DNA of 64,000 nucleotides from Labilithrix sp. (GTDB taxonomy: Bacteria; Myxococcota_A; Polyangia; Polyangiales; Polyangiaceae). The stretch is taken from NCBI GenBank assembly GCA_019637225.1, contig JAHBWC010000011.1:72501-136500 (forward strand), written 5' to 3'. Below, piece after piece: positions 44,617 to 51,855 of the stretch (its first letter is position 1; each line of letters starts with the position of its first letter). Under the pieces are notes generated by a model. That model made no database searches and was not told the DNA's origin. It worked only from the letters and a program-made list of their open reading frames with translations. The translations under genes and the position numbers were made by a program.

Positions 44617-44736
44617 ATCATAGGCACGCGTTCCGACGAGACAAGCCCTCGAGCTCCGCCTCCTCCGCCTCGGCATTTCCGTCGTCAGACCACGGGGTTC
44701 GAGCTCAGCGCTTTGTTTGGCCCACGGGGGGCCGAC

Positions 44737-47388
44737 ATGCGATGCCCGGAAGTCATGGGGCCTTCAGCCAGAAGGGGGAGCCTTCAGCAAGGAGCGCTCG
44801 CGAGCCGCGATCCGGACCTCGGGGAGCTCCGGCGCCTCGCCGAAGAGACCGCACGCGAGCGCGGGCAGAAGCCGACGACCACGCACCTGCTCGCCGCGAT
44901 CGCGAGCGGCGCGGACGACGCGGCTCAGCTGCTGCTCGAGCGCCGCCTCGATCCCGACGTCATCCTGCGCGCCGCGCGCGTGACGACGGACGACGCGGCC
45001 GACGGCGTCTCGCGCGCCATCCAGAAGGCGCGTGAGGTGGCCGGGCGCGCAGGCGCGAATCGCGCCGAAGCGCGCTCGATCCACGTGCTCTTCGCGCTCT
45101 GCCAGGACCCTGGCACCGCGGCGCACCGGGCGCTCGTGCAGTGCGGGACCGACGTGACCCGCCTCCGCGTCGCCTCGATGCAGCTCGCGATGGGCCTCCT
45201 CCCGCCGCGCCGGTCGGTCTCGGTGTCGTCGGTGACGAGCCAGCCGGCGAAGGCGCGCTCGAGCGCGGCGCCCCTCACCCCGCCGGGGACGCCGCCGCCC
45301 GCGAGCGCACGGCCGAGCGGGATCGTCCCGGTCGCGCCGGTCCGTCCTCCGATGGAGTCGCGACCCGCGTTGCCGCCCGCGCTCCCGAAGCCGCCTTCGA
45401 TGCCCCCGACGACGAAGGTCGCCGCGCCCGCGAAGGATGCGCCGAAGGCGAAGCGGCCGTCCAAGGAGGCCGCGAAGCATGACCCCACGAGCGGACGCGG
45501 GCGCTTCGGCCTCGATCCGAAGCAGTTCCCGCTCCTGTCGCAGGTCGGAAAGAACCTCACCGAGCTGGCGGCCCGCGGCGAGCTCGATCCGGTCGTCGGC
45601 CGCGAGGCCGAGATCGAGCGCGTCCTCGACGTCCTCGCGAAGCGCGAGCGGAGCAACGCCTGCCTGCTCGGCGGCCCCGGCGTGGGCAAGACGAGCGTCG
45701 CGCGCGGGCTCGCGCAGCGCATCGCCGATCGCGACGACGTCGCGTGCTTCGAGGAGAGCATCGTGATCGGCATCGAGCCGGCGGCGATGCTCGCAGGGAC
45801 CGGCATCCGCGGCTCGCTCGCGGAGCGCATCACGCAGCTCAAGAGCGAGCTCGCCAAGGCGAAGGACCCGCGCACGGGCCGCGGCCGCGTCATCGTCTTC
45901 TTCGACGAGATCCACGTGCTCTTCGGCCCCGAGGCGGGCGACGAGGGCACGACCGAGCTGAAGCTCGCGCTCGCGCGCGGCGAGATCGCGTGCATCGGCG
46001 CGACGACGGAGCACGAGTACCGTCGCTCGATCGACGCCGATCCCGGCCTGAGCCGGTGCTTCACGCCGATCGAGGTCACCGAGCTCGGTCCCGAGGAGGC
46101 GATGCTCGCGACGCTCGGCGTCGCGCCGCTCTTCGAGAAGCACCACGACTGCACCTTCCACGAGGAGGCGATCGCGAAGGCGATCACCTGGAGCGTGCGG
46201 TACCTGCCGAACAAGGCGCTGCCCGACAAGGCCGTGCAGATCCTCGATCTCGCCGGAGCGCGGACGCGGCGACGCGGCGAGCATCGCGTCGGCGTCGAAG
46301 AGGTCGCGGAGGTCGTGAGTGAGCTCGCGGGCGTCCCCGAGGAGCGTCTGCTCGAGACCGACGCCGAGCGGCTCCTCCGGATCGAAGAGCTCCTCGGCGA
46401 GCGCATCGTCGGCCACCGCGAGGCGCTCGAGAAGATCGCGACGGTGCTCCGCCGGAACGCGTCGGGCTTCCGCTCGCGCCGGCCGATCGGCACGTTCCTC
46501 TTGCTCGGTCCGACGGGCGTCGGCAAGACCGAGACGGCCAAGGCGATCGCGGGCTGCCTCTTCCACTCGAGCGACGCGATGACGCGGCTCGATCTCTCGG
46601 AGTACGCGGAGTCGCACGCCATCTCGCGCCTCGTCGGCGCGCCTCCCGGCTACGTCGGCCACGACTCGGGCGGACAGCTCACCGAGGCCGTCCGCCGGCG
46701 GCCCTATCAGGTCGTGCTCCTCGACGAGATCGAGAAGGCGCACCGCGACGTCCTCGAGGGCTTCCTGCAGGTCTTCGACGAGGGCCGCATGACCGACGGC
46801 CGCGGGCGCACCGTCGACTTCACGAACACGGTGATCCTCCTCACGTCGAACATCGGCGCCGACCTCTCGCCGAAGGCGAGCTCTCGGGGGCGGATCGGCT
46901 TCGGCGCCGATCCTTCGAGGTCGCGCGTGGCGTCGTCGGAGCGTGAGCGTGAGATGTCGCGCTATCAGGAGGCCGTGCGTGACGCGGCCCGGCGCGCGCT
47001 GCCGCCGGAGCTGTTCAACCGGCTCGACGAGGTCCTCGCCTTCGCCCCGCTCACGCGCGAGGACGTCGGCGAGGTCGCCCGGAGGATCCTCCGCGCGCTC
47101 GCGAAGGACCTCGAGGCCGCGCGAGGGGTCAAGCTCGACGCGAGCCCCGCCGCGATCGAGGCGCTGCTCGACGCGGGCGGGTTCGATCCCGAGATGGGCG
47201 CGCGTCCGATGCGCCGCGCCATCGGCCGGCTCGTCGAGGCGCCGATCGCGGAGCTGCTGCTCAAGGGCGAGCTCCGCCGAGGCGACGTCGCGCTCGTCGA
47301 GGTCGAGGACGGCACAATCGTCGTGGACGCCGTGACGCCGCCGCCGGACGCCGGAGTCGGGGCGACGGCGCCGGATGGGATAGACTGA
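44737..47388 (+). CDS. Clp-type (ClpA/ClpC-like) double AAA+ unfoldase
   Basis: The product unfolds proteins with ATP. From ATG 44737 it has 883 residues; TTG 44713 and ATG 44755 are other possible starts. It has a Clp N-domain (~25-155), a Pro/Ala-rich linker (~160-265) and two AAA+ modules. D1 has GGPGVGKT, VIVFFDEIH and sensor GATT. D2 has GPTGVGKT, VVLLDEIEK and the pore loop GYVG. After the D2 sensor it carries IGF (GRIGFGAD), similar to the ClpP-docking tripeptide of ClpA/ClpC. The ClpB/ClpC coiled-coil middle domain is missing. The D1 pore loop reads GIRG instead of the usual aromatic-containing YRG. No clpP or clpS is adjacent. Confidence 0.88.
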   Translation: MRCPEVMGPSARRGSLQQGALASRDPDLGELRRLAEETARERGQKPTTTHLLAAIASGADDAAQLLLERRLDPDVILRAARVTTDDAADGVSRAIQKAREVAGRAGANRAEARSIHVLFALCQDPGTAAHRALVQCGTDVTRLRVASMQLAMGLLPPRRSVSVSSVTSQPAKARSSAAPLTPPGTPPPASARPSGIVPVAPVRPPMESRPALPPALPKPPSMPPTTKVAAPAKDAPKAKRPSKEAAKHDPTSGRGRFGLDPKQFPLLSQVGKNLTELAARGELDPVVGREAEIERVLDVLAKRERSNACLLGGPGVGKTSVARGLAQRIADRDDVACFEESIVIGIEPAAMLAGTGIRGSLAERITQLKSELAKAKDPRTGRGRVIVFFDEIHVLFGPEAGDEGTTELKLALARGEIACIGATTEHEYRRSIDADPGLSRCFTPIEVTELGPEEAMLATLGVAPLFEKHHDCTFHEEAIAKAITWSVRYLPNKALPDKAVQILDLAGARTRRRGEHRVGVEEVAEVVSELAGVPEERLLETDAERLLRIEELLGERIVGHREALEKIATVLRRNASGFRSRRPIGTFLLLGPTGVGKTETAKAIAGCLFHSSDAMTRLDLSEYAESHAISRLVGAPPGYVGHDSGGQLTEAVRRRPYQVVLLDEIEKAHRDVLEGFLQVFDEGRMTDGRGRTVDFTNTVILLTSNIGADLSPKASSRGRIGFGADPSRSRVASSEREREMSRYQEAVRDAARRALPPELFNRLDEVLAFAPLTREDVGEVARRILRALAKDLEAARGVKLDASPAAIEALLDAGGFDPEMGARPMRRAIGRLVEAPIAELLLKGELRRGDVALVEVEDGTIVVDAVTPPPDAGVGATAPDGID

Positions 47389-47418
47389 GTCATTCGCCCG
47401 CTCCTCGCGCTCGTCTCG

Positions 47419-48408
47419 GTGGCATGGCTCGGCGTGACCGCCTGTGGCGGCGCGGAGAGCGCCGGTCCGCCCGCGGCGCGACCGGCGGCGAAGGGCGGCA
47501 AGGCGCGCCTCGCGACGGCGACGCCGGGTGAGAACGGCAAGGGGCTGACGCGCAGGGCGCCGCTCCGCTACGAGATCCGCGGCCGGCCCTTCCCGCTGCC
47601 GGTCGTGTCGGGGACGATCGCCGGGCAGCCGGTCCTCATGCTCGTCGACTCGGGGGCGAACTCGCACGTCCTCGCGGGGTGGCTCGCGCGCAAGCTGTCG
47701 CTCCCGATGAAGAAGCTCGGCGACATCGGCACCGACCACGTCGGGCAATCGATCTCCACCTACCGCGTCGACAAGCTCGCGATGACGATCGACGACTGGG
47801 GACCGCTCTCGGCGACCACGGCACTCGCCACGGAGGTTCCGGAGGTCATCGAGAAGCTCGGCATCGGCGCGTTCATCTCGCCGCAGCGCCTCGACGAGGA
47901 GGGCGACGCCGTCGTCCTCGATCTCGCGAAGGGCGAGATGCGCTCGGCGTGGTGGGACGACGCGTACTACGAGCTCTCGGCCGAGGGCGCGGCGCTCGTG
48001 AAGCCCGAAGAGGCGCGCGTGTGCGCGGAGAGCGACGGACCGGTGAAGGGCCTCGCGTTCGTGGTCCCGGCGACGATCGACTCGCAGAAGGTCGAGCTCC
48101 TGGTCGACACTGGCGCTCAGCACTCCGACGTCTTCACGACGTCGGCTGCAGGCAAGAAGCTCGCGAGTCAGAGCGCGCCGAACAAGGAGGCGATGTACAC
48201 GGCTTCCGGGAAGATCTCCGCGCGCAAGCTGAAGGGCATGCGGCTCGCGGCCGGCGCGTTCGCGGTGACCGCCGACGTGGATCTGATCCAGGGCGCCGCG
48301 GACAGCTCGTGCCCGCGCGACGGCGTGCTCGCGATGGACATGCTTCGGTCCTGCGCGCTCCTCCTCGGGCGCTCCCGGATCCACGGCCGCTGCCTGCCTC
48401 CGAAGTAG
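47419..48408 (+). CDS. Bilobal retropepsin-like aspartic protease lipoprotein
   Basis: Two copies of the aspartic-protease motif are visible: LVDSGANSHV (~75) and LVDTGAQHSDV (~229), each followed by a beta-rich half. One chain could therefore supply both catalytic Asp residues, like a pepsin, though with retropepsin-type halves. From the first canonical start, GTG 47419, the protein begins VAWLGVTACGG. The ten codons before it read VIRPLLALVS, which completes a lipoprotein signal peptide (Cys lipobox VTAC). A non-canonical ATT at 47392 may therefore be the true start. It follows the Clp gene by 3-30 bases. It is probably lipid-anchored outside the inner membrane. Confidence 0.8.
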   Translation: MAWLGVTACGGAESAGPPAARPAAKGGKARLATATPGENGKGLTRRAPLRYEIRGRPFPLPVVSGTIAGQPVLMLVDSGANSHVLAGWLARKLSLPMKKLGDIGTDHVGQSISTYRVDKLAMTIDDWGPLSATTALATEVPEVIEKLGIGAFISPQRLDEEGDAVVLDLAKGEMRSAWWDDAYYELSAEGAALVKPEEARVCAESDGPVKGLAFVVPATIDSQKVELLVDTGAQHSDVFTTSAAGKKLASQSAPNKEAMYTASGKISARKLKGMRLAAGAFAVTADVDLIQGAADSSCPRDGVLAMDMLRSCALLLGRSRIHGRCLPPK

Positions 48409-48421
48409 CGGCGCGGCCCGG

Positions 48422-48922
48422 TCAGCGATCCGAGCGCCCGAGCTCCTCTGCGAGGGCCGCGAGCACGGTGCGCGCCGCGTCGATCGTCTCGGGCGGCATC
48501 CGCGCGAGCGCGCGACGGACGGCGGCCTCGACGGTGCCTGCCTGCGTCGCGTCGATCGTCTCGCCCGGCGGCAGGAGGAGGAACTTCGAGCGCCGCGCGT
48601 CCTCCGCGTCGCGATCTCGCTGGACGAACCCGCGATCGACGAGCCGGCGGAGGACGCCGGTGAGCGTGCTCGGGTGCACGTGCACGAGCTCGGCGAGGCG
48701 ACCGGCGGCGATCTCGGGATAGCGGCCGATGAGGCGGATCACGATGCGCTGCATGCCCGTGACGCCGAGCTCGACCTCCATCCGCTTCGAGCGTCGCTGC
48801 AGCCCGTGATCGACGGCCCAGAGGAGACGCAGGAAGTCGAGCGCGACGCCGAGCGCGCTTTGCTCGCGCGACGCCCCGGCCGGGCCGCCGCGCTGCCGCG
48901 TGCCCTTCTCCCCGGCGCTCAC
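48422..48922 (-). CDS. MarR-family transcriptional regulator
   Basis: GTG 48922 overlaps the stop of the radical SAM gene by four bases (GTGA), so I use it rather than an upstream frame that runs inside that gene. The 166-residue product has the MarR winged-helix layout. Residues ~55-80 form the recognition region (IAAGRLAELVHVHPSTLTGVLRRLVDRGFVQRDRDAEDARRSKFLLL spans helix and wing), flanked by dimerisation helices. MarR proteins bind DNA as dimers and respond to small ligands. Coupling to the radical SAM gene suggests that it controls that operon or its product's pathway. Confidence 0.85.
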   Translation of the reverse strand: MSAGEKGTRQRGGPAGASREQSALGVALDFLRLLWAVDHGLQRRSKRMEVELGVTGMQRIVIRLIGRYPEIAAGRLAELVHVHPSTLTGVLRRLVDRGFVQRDRDAEDARRSKFLLLPPGETIDATQAGTVEAAVRRALARMPPETIDAARTVLAALAEELGRSDR

Positions 48923-50763
48923 CGCTCCACCATGACGGGCAGGCGGACGCGCTTGGCGGGGAGCGTCACCGTCCCGAGCTCCGGAGACAGCGGCAGCGTC
49001 TGGTTCTTCGCGTAGACGGGATGACGGCCGCGCGTGCGGTTCCACTCGGCGACGGTGGCCGTGGCCTTCATCTTCTCGATGACCTGACGCCAGCCGATAC
49101 CCGTGTTGTACGCGCAGAAGCTGATCTCACCCATCTGCGTACCGTAGGGGATGATGCACATCTCGGTGCGCCGGAAGTCGTAGTTGTAGAGGTCCTGGAA
49201 CCACATCCCGGCGACGAAGAGGACGCGCCACTCGAACTCGCCGGCGTCGCTCTCGTGCTCGCCGACGCGCGCGCCACGCGCGCCGGTCTGGCTGAGGAAC
49301 TGCTCGAGGAGCACACGGAACGACACGGGTGAGGCGTCCGCGTCGAAGTTCTTGAGGAGCGCGAGCGCGAGCTCGACGAGCGTGAGCGTCCGGCCCTGCG
49401 CGGCATCGGTGATGTCCTGGAGATCCGACAGGAGGGTCTCCAGATCGAGGAACTCGGTGAGCGGGACCGCTCGCTTCGTCTTCTTGTTCACGAAGAGGAC
49501 CGTGCCGACGCCGCAGTTCGGATGGCAGCCGCACTTCATCGAGCCCCAGTCGGCGCGCTCGCCGAGGAGGTGGTCGGTCAGATCGCTGAACGGGCCCATC
49601 GCCGACAGCGGGAACCAGTCCCGGAGCGGCTCGGTGATGCCGGTCTGCGCCTTGATGTCGTGCGCGAGGTGGCTCAGCGTGTAGCGCTGGCGGGCGCGCA
49701 GGGCGTCGGAGATGTCCTCGTCGCGTCCGGTGAAGCTGACGGGCTGGAAGCTCACGACGGTGACCTTGTCGGCGTTCTCGATCGCGAAGTCGACGATGCG
49801 GCCGACCTCGTGATCGTTGACGCCGTTGACGACCGTGACGACGAGAATGACGTCGACGCCTGCGGCGTGGAGATTCTCGATCGCGCGCACCTTCACGTCG
49901 AACAGGTTCGCGATCTTGCGGTGCGCGTTGACCTCGTTGCCGACGCCGTCGAACTGGAGGTACGCCATGCGGAGACCGGCGGCCTTCGCCTCGCGCGCGA
50001 AGGCTAGGTCCTCTGCGAAGCGAATGCCGTTCGTCGCGCACTGCACCGCGAAGAAGCCCTTCTCGCGCGCGTAGCGGATCGCCCGGAGGAAATGCGGGCT
50101 GAGCGTGGGCTCACCACCGGAGAACTGGATGCTCATCTGGCGCCGCGGCTGCACCGTGAGCGCGTCGTCGAGGATCTTCGCGATGTCGTCCCACTCGAGC
50201 TCGTGGACGTAGCCGACCTGGTTGGCGTCCATGAAGCACGGGTCGCACATCATGTTGCAGCGGTTCGTGAGGTCGACGGTCAGCACGCTGCCGCGCCCGT
50301 ACTTGATGCTCGAGCTGCCGTGGTCCCGGAGCTTCGTCAGAGGCGCGAGGTAGTCGCGACCGGGGTAGAGCCGCTCGATCCGCCGGAGGAAGTCGGCGTC
50401 GATCGCCATGACGTCCTCGAAGGCGCCGTGGGTGGGGCACTCCTTCTTCATGAGGATCGTCCGGCGGCCGTCGCGGAGCTCCTCGACGATGCTCGCGCGG
50501 ATCTCGCCGGGGCGGCCGTCGACCAGCGACCGGAGGTCCGTCTTCCCGGAGAGGACGTCGGTGCGCACCTCCTTCACGCAGCGCGGGCAGAGCGAGTCGG
50601 TCTCCCGCGGGAAGCCGAGCTCGGGGAAGGTCCGCTCGCGACGCTTCGGGAGCGGCGCCGGCGCCCACGCAGGCCGGGGAGCGGGTCGTTCGATCGCGCG
50701 GTTCAACCGCTGGATGAGGGGCCATAGTCGACGAGCCGTCGTCGAGAGCGCGCGCTGGAGCAC
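48919..50763 (-). CDS. Radical SAM enzyme of the Tes-like (membrane-spanning lipid synthase) group
   Basis: The 614-residue product begins at GTG 50763. It has an N-terminal Zn/Fe-type pair (LCPRCVKEV ~60 and KKECPTHGAFED ~108). The radical SAM cluster motif CNMMCDPC (~172-179) and the SAM-binding FSGGEPTLSPHFL follow. A second Cys cluster, CGCHPNCG (~413), and a C-terminal domain with FRRTEMCIIPYGTQMGEISFCAYNTG (~550) complete it. These extra cysteines suggest more Fe-S clusters. In layout it resembles the tetraether lipid synthase Tes and its bacterial relatives, which join lipid tails by C-C bonds; this identification is from memory of the family, not a search. The MarR gene overlaps its stop. 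Confidence 0.75.
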   Translation of the reverse strand: MLQRALSTTARRLWPLIQRLNRAIERPAPRPAWAPAPLPKRRERTFPELGFPRETDSLCPRCVKEVRTDVLSGKTDLRSLVDGRPGEIRASIVEELRDGRRTILMKKECPTHGAFEDVMAIDADFLRRIERLYPGRDYLAPLTKLRDHGSSSIKYGRGSVLTVDLTNRCNMMCDPCFMDANQVGYVHELEWDDIAKILDDALTVQPRRQMSIQFSGGEPTLSPHFLRAIRYAREKGFFAVQCATNGIRFAEDLAFAREAKAAGLRMAYLQFDGVGNEVNAHRKIANLFDVKVRAIENLHAAGVDVILVVTVVNGVNDHEVGRIVDFAIENADKVTVVSFQPVSFTGRDEDISDALRARQRYTLSHLAHDIKAQTGITEPLRDWFPLSAMGPFSDLTDHLLGERADWGSMKCGCHPNCGVGTVLFVNKKTKRAVPLTEFLDLETLLSDLQDITDAAQGRTLTLVELALALLKNFDADASPVSFRVLLEQFLSQTGARGARVGEHESDAGEFEWRVLFVAGMWFQDLYNYDFRRTEMCIIPYGTQMGEISFCAYNTGIGWRQVIEKMKATATVAEWNRTRGRHPVYAKNQTLPLSPELGTVTLPAKRVRLPVMVER

Positions 50764-50818
50764 GCTCGGGACGTTAGCCAAACGCCGTGGTTCCGACCAG
50801 CACAGCTCGCTGGGTGCG

Positions 50819-50840
50819 CCGGCGCGGCCAAGGGCGCCGG
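50819..50840 (-). terminator. Hairpin after the phosphate transporter operon
   Basis: CCGGCGC (50834-50840 complement) and GCGCCGG form a 7-bp stem with an 8-base loop, 11 bases after the stop at 50852 on the minus strand. No T-run is seen. Confidence 0.4.
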
Positions 50841-50851
50841 GCCCCGCGCCC

Positions 50852-51855
<1,004 letters not shown>

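Follow-up and report, generated by a model that had tools for sequence, protein, structure and literature searches.

Two retropepsin-like active-site motifs lie in one reading frame of the 64,000-nucleotide stretch of Labilithrix sp. DNA analyzed here (the window), which raises the question of whether two protease halves have been joined into a single chain and, if so, what such a protein would do. The question bears on pepsins, whose origin from a half-size dimeric ancestor has been argued mainly from structure, the lobes being described as sharing almost no sequence (PMC2761423). We present here an analysis of the gene, its predicted fold, its relatives, and the age of the fusion. The reading that we favor, with a probability of about 0.75, is an exported lipoprotein that acts as a monomeric aspartic endopeptidase.

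Both motifs share one open frame on the plus strand (47389 to 48408) and belong to a single gene, the coding sequence of which is placed at 47392 to 48408 (plus strand). The first conventional start codon is GTG at 47419. Translation probably starts instead at ATT 47392, as read from the sequence, because only 8 residues separate the GTG start from a lipoprotein-type cysteine and codons 47392 to 47442 encode a full lipoprotein-type signal, in line with relatives; the non-canonical start was counted against our best explanation. The putative signal peptide (47392 to 47445, plus strand) ends at a lipobox, V-T-A-C, with the Cys codon at 47443 to 47445, and, of the relatives with a match that extends to the signal region, most have a cysteine in the corresponding position. 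A long minus-strand frame (44764 to 48384) covers the same stretch as the protease gene; because conservation tracks the plus-strand frame, we regard the minus-strand one as a mirror frame in high-GC DNA.

A minus-10-like hexamer, TAGACT (47381 to 47386, plus strand), is located 5 bases 5′ of the likely start codon. A TAnnnT hexamer was found 5 to 10 bases 5′ of the likely start, with start positions picked by eye, in all 10 loci compared (window 47381 to 47394, L062, L063, L064, L065, L066, L067, L068, L069, and L071). The hexamer may function as a promoter, with spacing as in leaderless transcripts. The start codon is GTG or ATG in 7 of these 10 loci and ATT (the window and L062) or ATC (L065) in three genomes, all of one genus, which suggests conserved non-canonical starts.

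The first motif, MLVDSGANSHV, has its Asp codon at 47647 to 47649, and the second, LLVDTGAQHSDV, at 48106 to 48108. The two motifs are thus those of the original prediction, but the spacing given there, 155 residues, is not: D87 and D240 are 153 residues apart in the 339-codon reading. The N-terminal retropepsin-like half (47584 to 47949, plus strand; model residues 48 to 169) was delimited by Pfam model PF13650 and AlphaFold2 strands. It contains the DSGA motif (47647 to 47658, plus strand; D87 in the 339-residue reading, D69 in the model) and a flap hairpin defined by AlphaFold2 strands (47725 to 47778, plus strand). The C-terminal half (48049 to 48393, plus strand; model residues 203 to 317) was delimited by the PF13975 stretch (216 to 310) and AlphaFold2 strands. 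It contains the DTGA motif (48106 to 48117, plus strand; D240, D222 in the model), a second flap hairpin with the sequence YTASGK (48193 to 48252, plus strand; AlphaFold2 strands), and conserved cysteine codons at 48310, 48352, and 48391; a further conserved cysteine codon, at 48022, lies just 5′ of this half.

Both active-site aspartates are invariant in an alignment of 23 members (A1) and in one of 24 rows (A2). Other invariant residues in A1 include G89, A90, H93, D116, H117, C212, G242, C308, D311, G312, and C322, and C335 is nearly invariant. The D116-H117 pair (codons 47734 to 47739) is carried by the N-half flap hairpin. In A2, D116 is invariant and H93 and H117 are nearly so (D98, H75, and H99, respectively, in A2 numbering). 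H93, six residues past the active-site Asp (window 47665 to 47667), and the flap Asp-His pair are conserved features of the N-half alone; we know of no role for either.

Two Pfam models scored above their cut-offs, each over two stretches of the protein: PF13650 (Asp_protease_2; 62.1 bits versus a cut-off of 24.3, E value 8.6e-17) and PF13975 (gag-asp_proteas; 54.1 bits versus 28.2). The retropepsin-like motifs are therefore not chance occurrences, and the proposed search for a single- or double-motif family returned a double match with both models. Scores above the Pfam gathering cut-offs, together with a D-[ST]-G-[AS] motif in both domains, point to clan AA. The NCBIfam model for clan AA DTGA proteins, TIGR02281, scored 41.8 bits, under its curated cut-off of 57.95. 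The pepsin family was not among the five Pfam families listed at E values up to 10, a negative result limited by the HMMER filters, which discard most weak matches, and the Pfam scan of the window protein gave no match to the PE_PGRS C-terminal protease model PF20729 (PE-PGRS_C).

Profiles of the N- and C-halves, cut from A2, were compared with hhalign and matched with an E value of 5e-8, a probability of 95%, and 25% identity over 69 columns, so that, by profile comparison, the halves are homologous in sequence. In pepsins, by contrast, homology between the lobes is described as not observable in sequence outside the motifs (PMC2761423). The hydrophobic-hydrophobic-Gly motif of the psi loop was located by eye. 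The C-half has V-L-A/G at this place; in the N-half, Ser or Ala replaces the Gly, giving SPQ or APQ across the family, which counts against an active protease.

The structure was modeled as a single chain using AlphaFold2 with 24 sequences (pLDDT 87.8, pTM 0.84); the five models had mean pLDDT values of 86.6 to 87.8, and the linker, model residues 1 to 8 and 10 to 32, had pLDDT values below 50. The model predicts one compact, two-lobed pseudo-dimer that resembles pepsin or a tethered dimer of HIV protease, in agreement with the original prediction. Strand order is alike in both halves, with a hairpin at the flap position of each (95 to 112 and 251 to 270), so that the beta-rich half said to follow each motif was recovered twice, with matching strands and flap. 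Neither of the outcomes that had been named as arguing against a fused pair, motifs predicted to lie far apart or a half lacking the flap and strands of the protease, was seen, and the two Asp residues would probably meet.

Foldseek searches of the PDB placed tethered HIV-1 protease (1lv1) at the top (3.0e-10) and also matched 9iy9 (4.2e-9), 4ehc (2.9e-8), and pepsin-family enzymes (from 4.5e-7). VIA-align, in which rows less than 1 apart in Z are treated as tied, gave Z scores of 18.4 for 9iy9, a putative endopeptidase of Bacteroides fragilis (244 residues, 3.2 Å), 16.3 for renin (5tmk; 251 residues, 4.0 Å), 16.0 for tethered HIV-1 protease (3fsm; 192 of 203 residues, 2.9 Å), and 15.5 for 4ehc, PE_PGRS16 (229 residues, 3.5 Å). 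A single superposition covers both halves of tethered HIV-1 protease, 9iy9, and renin. Because one superposition spans both halves of the tethered HIV protease, the two motifs would meet as D25 and D25′ do in HIV protease. The model further predicts the clan AA fold with its flap and an active site between two domains, and a two-lobed monomer with one Asp per lobe, as in pepsin family A1 (renin and pepsin Z scores of 15 to 16). A sequence search of the PDB that used just the window protein found only weak matches, to proteases of HIV-2 and SIV and to a single further chain, with a best E value of 0.14; a profile search of PDB sequences matched tethered HIV-1 protease dimers best (2.2e-06).

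These matches set the protein beside several known proteases. The best structural match across both halves, 9iy9, is likewise a natural bacterial single chain; it differs in sharing 14% identity and in having extra N-terminal sequence, its 420-residue chain being matched from residue 156 on. No paper for this PDB code was found in the open literature. The mycobacterial proteins PE_PGRS16 (4ehc) and PecA, a PE_PGRS35 homologue, also carry DTG and DSG motifs in one two-lobed chain at the cell surface, but are reported to have a PE domain and to use ESX-5 secretion (PMC6819658), whereas the window protein has a lipoprotein signal; 4ehc and the window protein share 10% identity. PecA is described as an active protease whose cleavage needs the active-site Asp, while PE_PGRS16 is reported as inactive when tested (PMC6819658), and the latter counts against an active-protease reading. 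Members of pepsin family A1, bacterial ones included, are described as two-lobed monomers with one Asp per lobe (PMC2761423); the window protein differs in that its halves are still alike in sequence and in having Ala after both Asp-[ST]-Gly motifs. The tethered HIV-1 protease dimers, its top Foldseek and best sequence-profile matches, are engineered, viral, and nearly identical in their halves. RloA and RimB share the clan AA fold and the D-[ST]-G-A motif with the window protein, but have one motif per chain; RloA is reported to be exported, with a disulfide, and to form a homodimer (PMC12239564). The general statement that bacterial retropepsins are usually one-motif dimers holds for RloA, but two-motif bacterial proteins are known in PE_PGRS16, PecA, and 9iy9. 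APRc is another single-domain bacterial retropepsin.

Across the 183 genomes of the order, whole-protein searches yielded 42 matches in 38 genomes. Among the named relatives are Labilithrix sp. (81% identity), Sorangium cellulosum (39 to 40%), and metagenome-assembled genomes of Myxococcales and Polyangiaceae; one near-full-length match (G177, L107) lies outside the taxonomic family of the window but within its order. The searches did not find the gene in the other 145 genomes, which counts against our best explanation; these include two genomes of the same genus that are 98 and 100% complete. Both aspartates are kept in 39 of the 42 matches: all of the 30 read first have both motifs, as do 9 of the remaining 12, the exceptions being L108, L112, and L113. 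L112 starts at a contig end and shows just the end of the C-half. L113 keeps the Asp in its second motif (DTGG), with a stop codon 27 codons before the match and no first motif in its frame before the contig end; this copy is partial or broken. L108 (region of G126, same genus) is a distant paralogue with DTGATTH as its first motif and NTGG as its second, and its sequence makes it a possible natural half-dead protease. The Asn variant of L108 and the L113 copy, with no first motif in frame, were counted against an active protease.

A profile search of 282 genomes of the phylum matched 13 genomes at 1e-5; seven of these matches are near full length, all within the window’s own taxonomic family, and the others are partial. 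Tandem pairs occur in three single-contig genomes (L013 and L102, L015 and L103, L014 and L104), in which the second copies are 35 to 36% identical to the window protein and keep both motifs. A plasmid-borne gene was also considered and rejected, since a search of 72,556 plasmid records at an E value of 0.01 found nothing. In searches of the open literature, no paper was recognized as describing this myxobacterial family.

Taken as an enzyme, the protein would be exported and anchored by lipid at the envelope, as its N-terminal sequence reads, and its two retropepsin-like halves would pack face to face within one chain. The catalytic dyad, which would activate a water molecule, would consist of D87 from the first half and D240 from the second, the two flap hairpins would shut over a peptide in the cleft, and the peptide would be cleaved, by putative catalysis, in the periplasm or at the cell surface. 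Disulfides may link the conserved cysteines that lie in the C-half or immediately precede it, as the analogy with RloA suggests. Both D-[ST]-G motifs are followed by Ala, which in HIV retropepsin and renin has been connected to activity at neutral pH (PMC2761423); the window protein may likewise be active at a pH close to neutral.

The protease reading draws its support from the homologous halves, the kept aspartates, the predicted pseudo-dimer fold, and the activity of PecA, which has a like fold. The altered N-half psi loop, the replacement of the second Asp by Asn in one relative, and the PE_PGRS16 result, in which no detectable activity was reported (PMC6819658), would fit a protein that has retained the two-lobed fold for peptide binding or a structural role in the envelope and has lost catalysis. 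Such a non-catalytic role would not demand that both aspartates be kept, as they are in 39 of 42 matches with identities to the window protein down to 25 to 30%, and we regard it as improbable, if the most serious of the competing accounts. Pairing could also take place between chains instead of within one, with two chains dimerizing so that like halves meet, as single-domain bacterial retropepsins such as RloA are reported to be homodimers (PMC12239564). Against this stand the halves themselves, which differ at 75% of aligned positions, and the confident one-chain model, which superposes whole on tethered HIV protease dimers, 9iy9, and pepsins; with modeling that covered a single chain, between-chain pairing is judged very unlikely.

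The neighborhood raises a further account, in which the protein is the dedicated partner of the gene on one of its sides. Upstream lies a gene for a ClpA-type AAA+ chaperone (44713 to 47388, plus strand), which adjoins on the same strand, its stop at 47388 and the protease start at 47392; downstream, on the opposite strand, are a MarR-type regulator and a radical SAM gene. Of 25 related loci, 6 have the ClpA-type gene near the protease gene and 8 have the radical SAM gene near it, counts that are lower bounds because several loci are short. Neither was found at an E value of 1e-8 within 6 kb in the three Sorangium loci whose flanks are complete (L073, L074, and L077). The chaperone is not a required partner. 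Moreover, ClpA would be cytoplasmic and the protease exported, and the protease gene has its own conserved promoter-like hexamer. A dedicated partnership is judged very unlikely, and an operon with clpA was rejected, the pairing not being found beyond near relatives; the neighborhood does not define the function of the protease. The radical SAM protein (window 48919 to 51099) has an HMPTM-type zinc ribbon.

The two-lobed arrangement of this monomeric protease candidate is real and well conserved, and one-chain bacterial proteases of a similar kind are already known. The expectation that a fused pair would be something unusual was accordingly not borne out: besides PE_PGRS16, PecA, and 9iy9, other two-motif loci occur in the class and phylum, and these, with the solved examples, speak against reading the fusion as unusual or unique. 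Of 28 Asp_protease_2 loci of other families in the class (the 30 best-scoring matches in 59 genomes, minus members of the window family), 7 have two motifs in one frame, as do 2 of the 6 outlying loci with partial matches elsewhere in the phylum search (L094 to L099). Six of these nine loci match PDZ models at E values below 0.001, four of them above the Pfam cut-off. The other three (L047, L097, and L098) are a longer type with an SPQ-like N-half signature (SPH in L047), and two of them match PF20729 weakly, below its cut-off.

The SPQ type (A4) aligns with the window family through both halves in register (E value 2.8e-10) and differs in that its three proteins are longer, with an extra C-terminal part. 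The PDZ type (A3) also has two motifs per chain and aligns with the window family in the C-half only (1.1e-8); it differs in carrying a match to a PDZ model (E value below 0.001) in each of its six members. PDB searches with a PDZ-type protein and profile matched mainly PDZ domains and, weakly, Ddi1; a PDB sequence search with an SPQ-type protein gave no match.

A tree of 57 domains (117 columns, long branches), in which 13 of the 24 aligned members were represented by their halves, placed the N-halves of the window family in one clade (support 99/99) and the C-halves in another (100/99), so the fusion predates the window family. A fusion private to this lineage, in which the halves would be sisters, was weakly rejected (p-AU 0.026 on the same 117 columns with long branches). 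Support for a grouping of the N-halves of the window family with those of the SPQ type was too low to establish it (57/54), and a constraint holding all N-halves together was not rejected (p-AU 0.28). The parallel to the origin of pepsins drawn in the original prediction may thus hold but is not peculiar to the window gene.

A bacterial family with like halves, kept active-site residues, and one-motif relatives in the phylum offers material for testing the path proposed for pepsins. It is conceivable, though on balance doubtful, that bacteria have an old and widespread lineage of aspartic proteases in which two retropepsin-like halves make up one two-lobed chain, with the myxobacterial lipoprotein family as one branch. 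Its specialized yet homologous halves (DTGAxxH and the flap Asp-His pair in the N-half, cysteines in the C-half) would then preserve an intermediate of a pepsin-type duplication and fusion, independent of eukaryotic pepsins. More immediately, the window family points to uncharacterised exported proteases in myxobacteria. Among the loci examined, L092 (511 to 1437) and L093 (530 to 1456) each have a frame just upstream, 309 amino acids long in both, that contains a D-S-G-C motif (LAIDSGC) and may be a further gene of the retropepsin-like kind.
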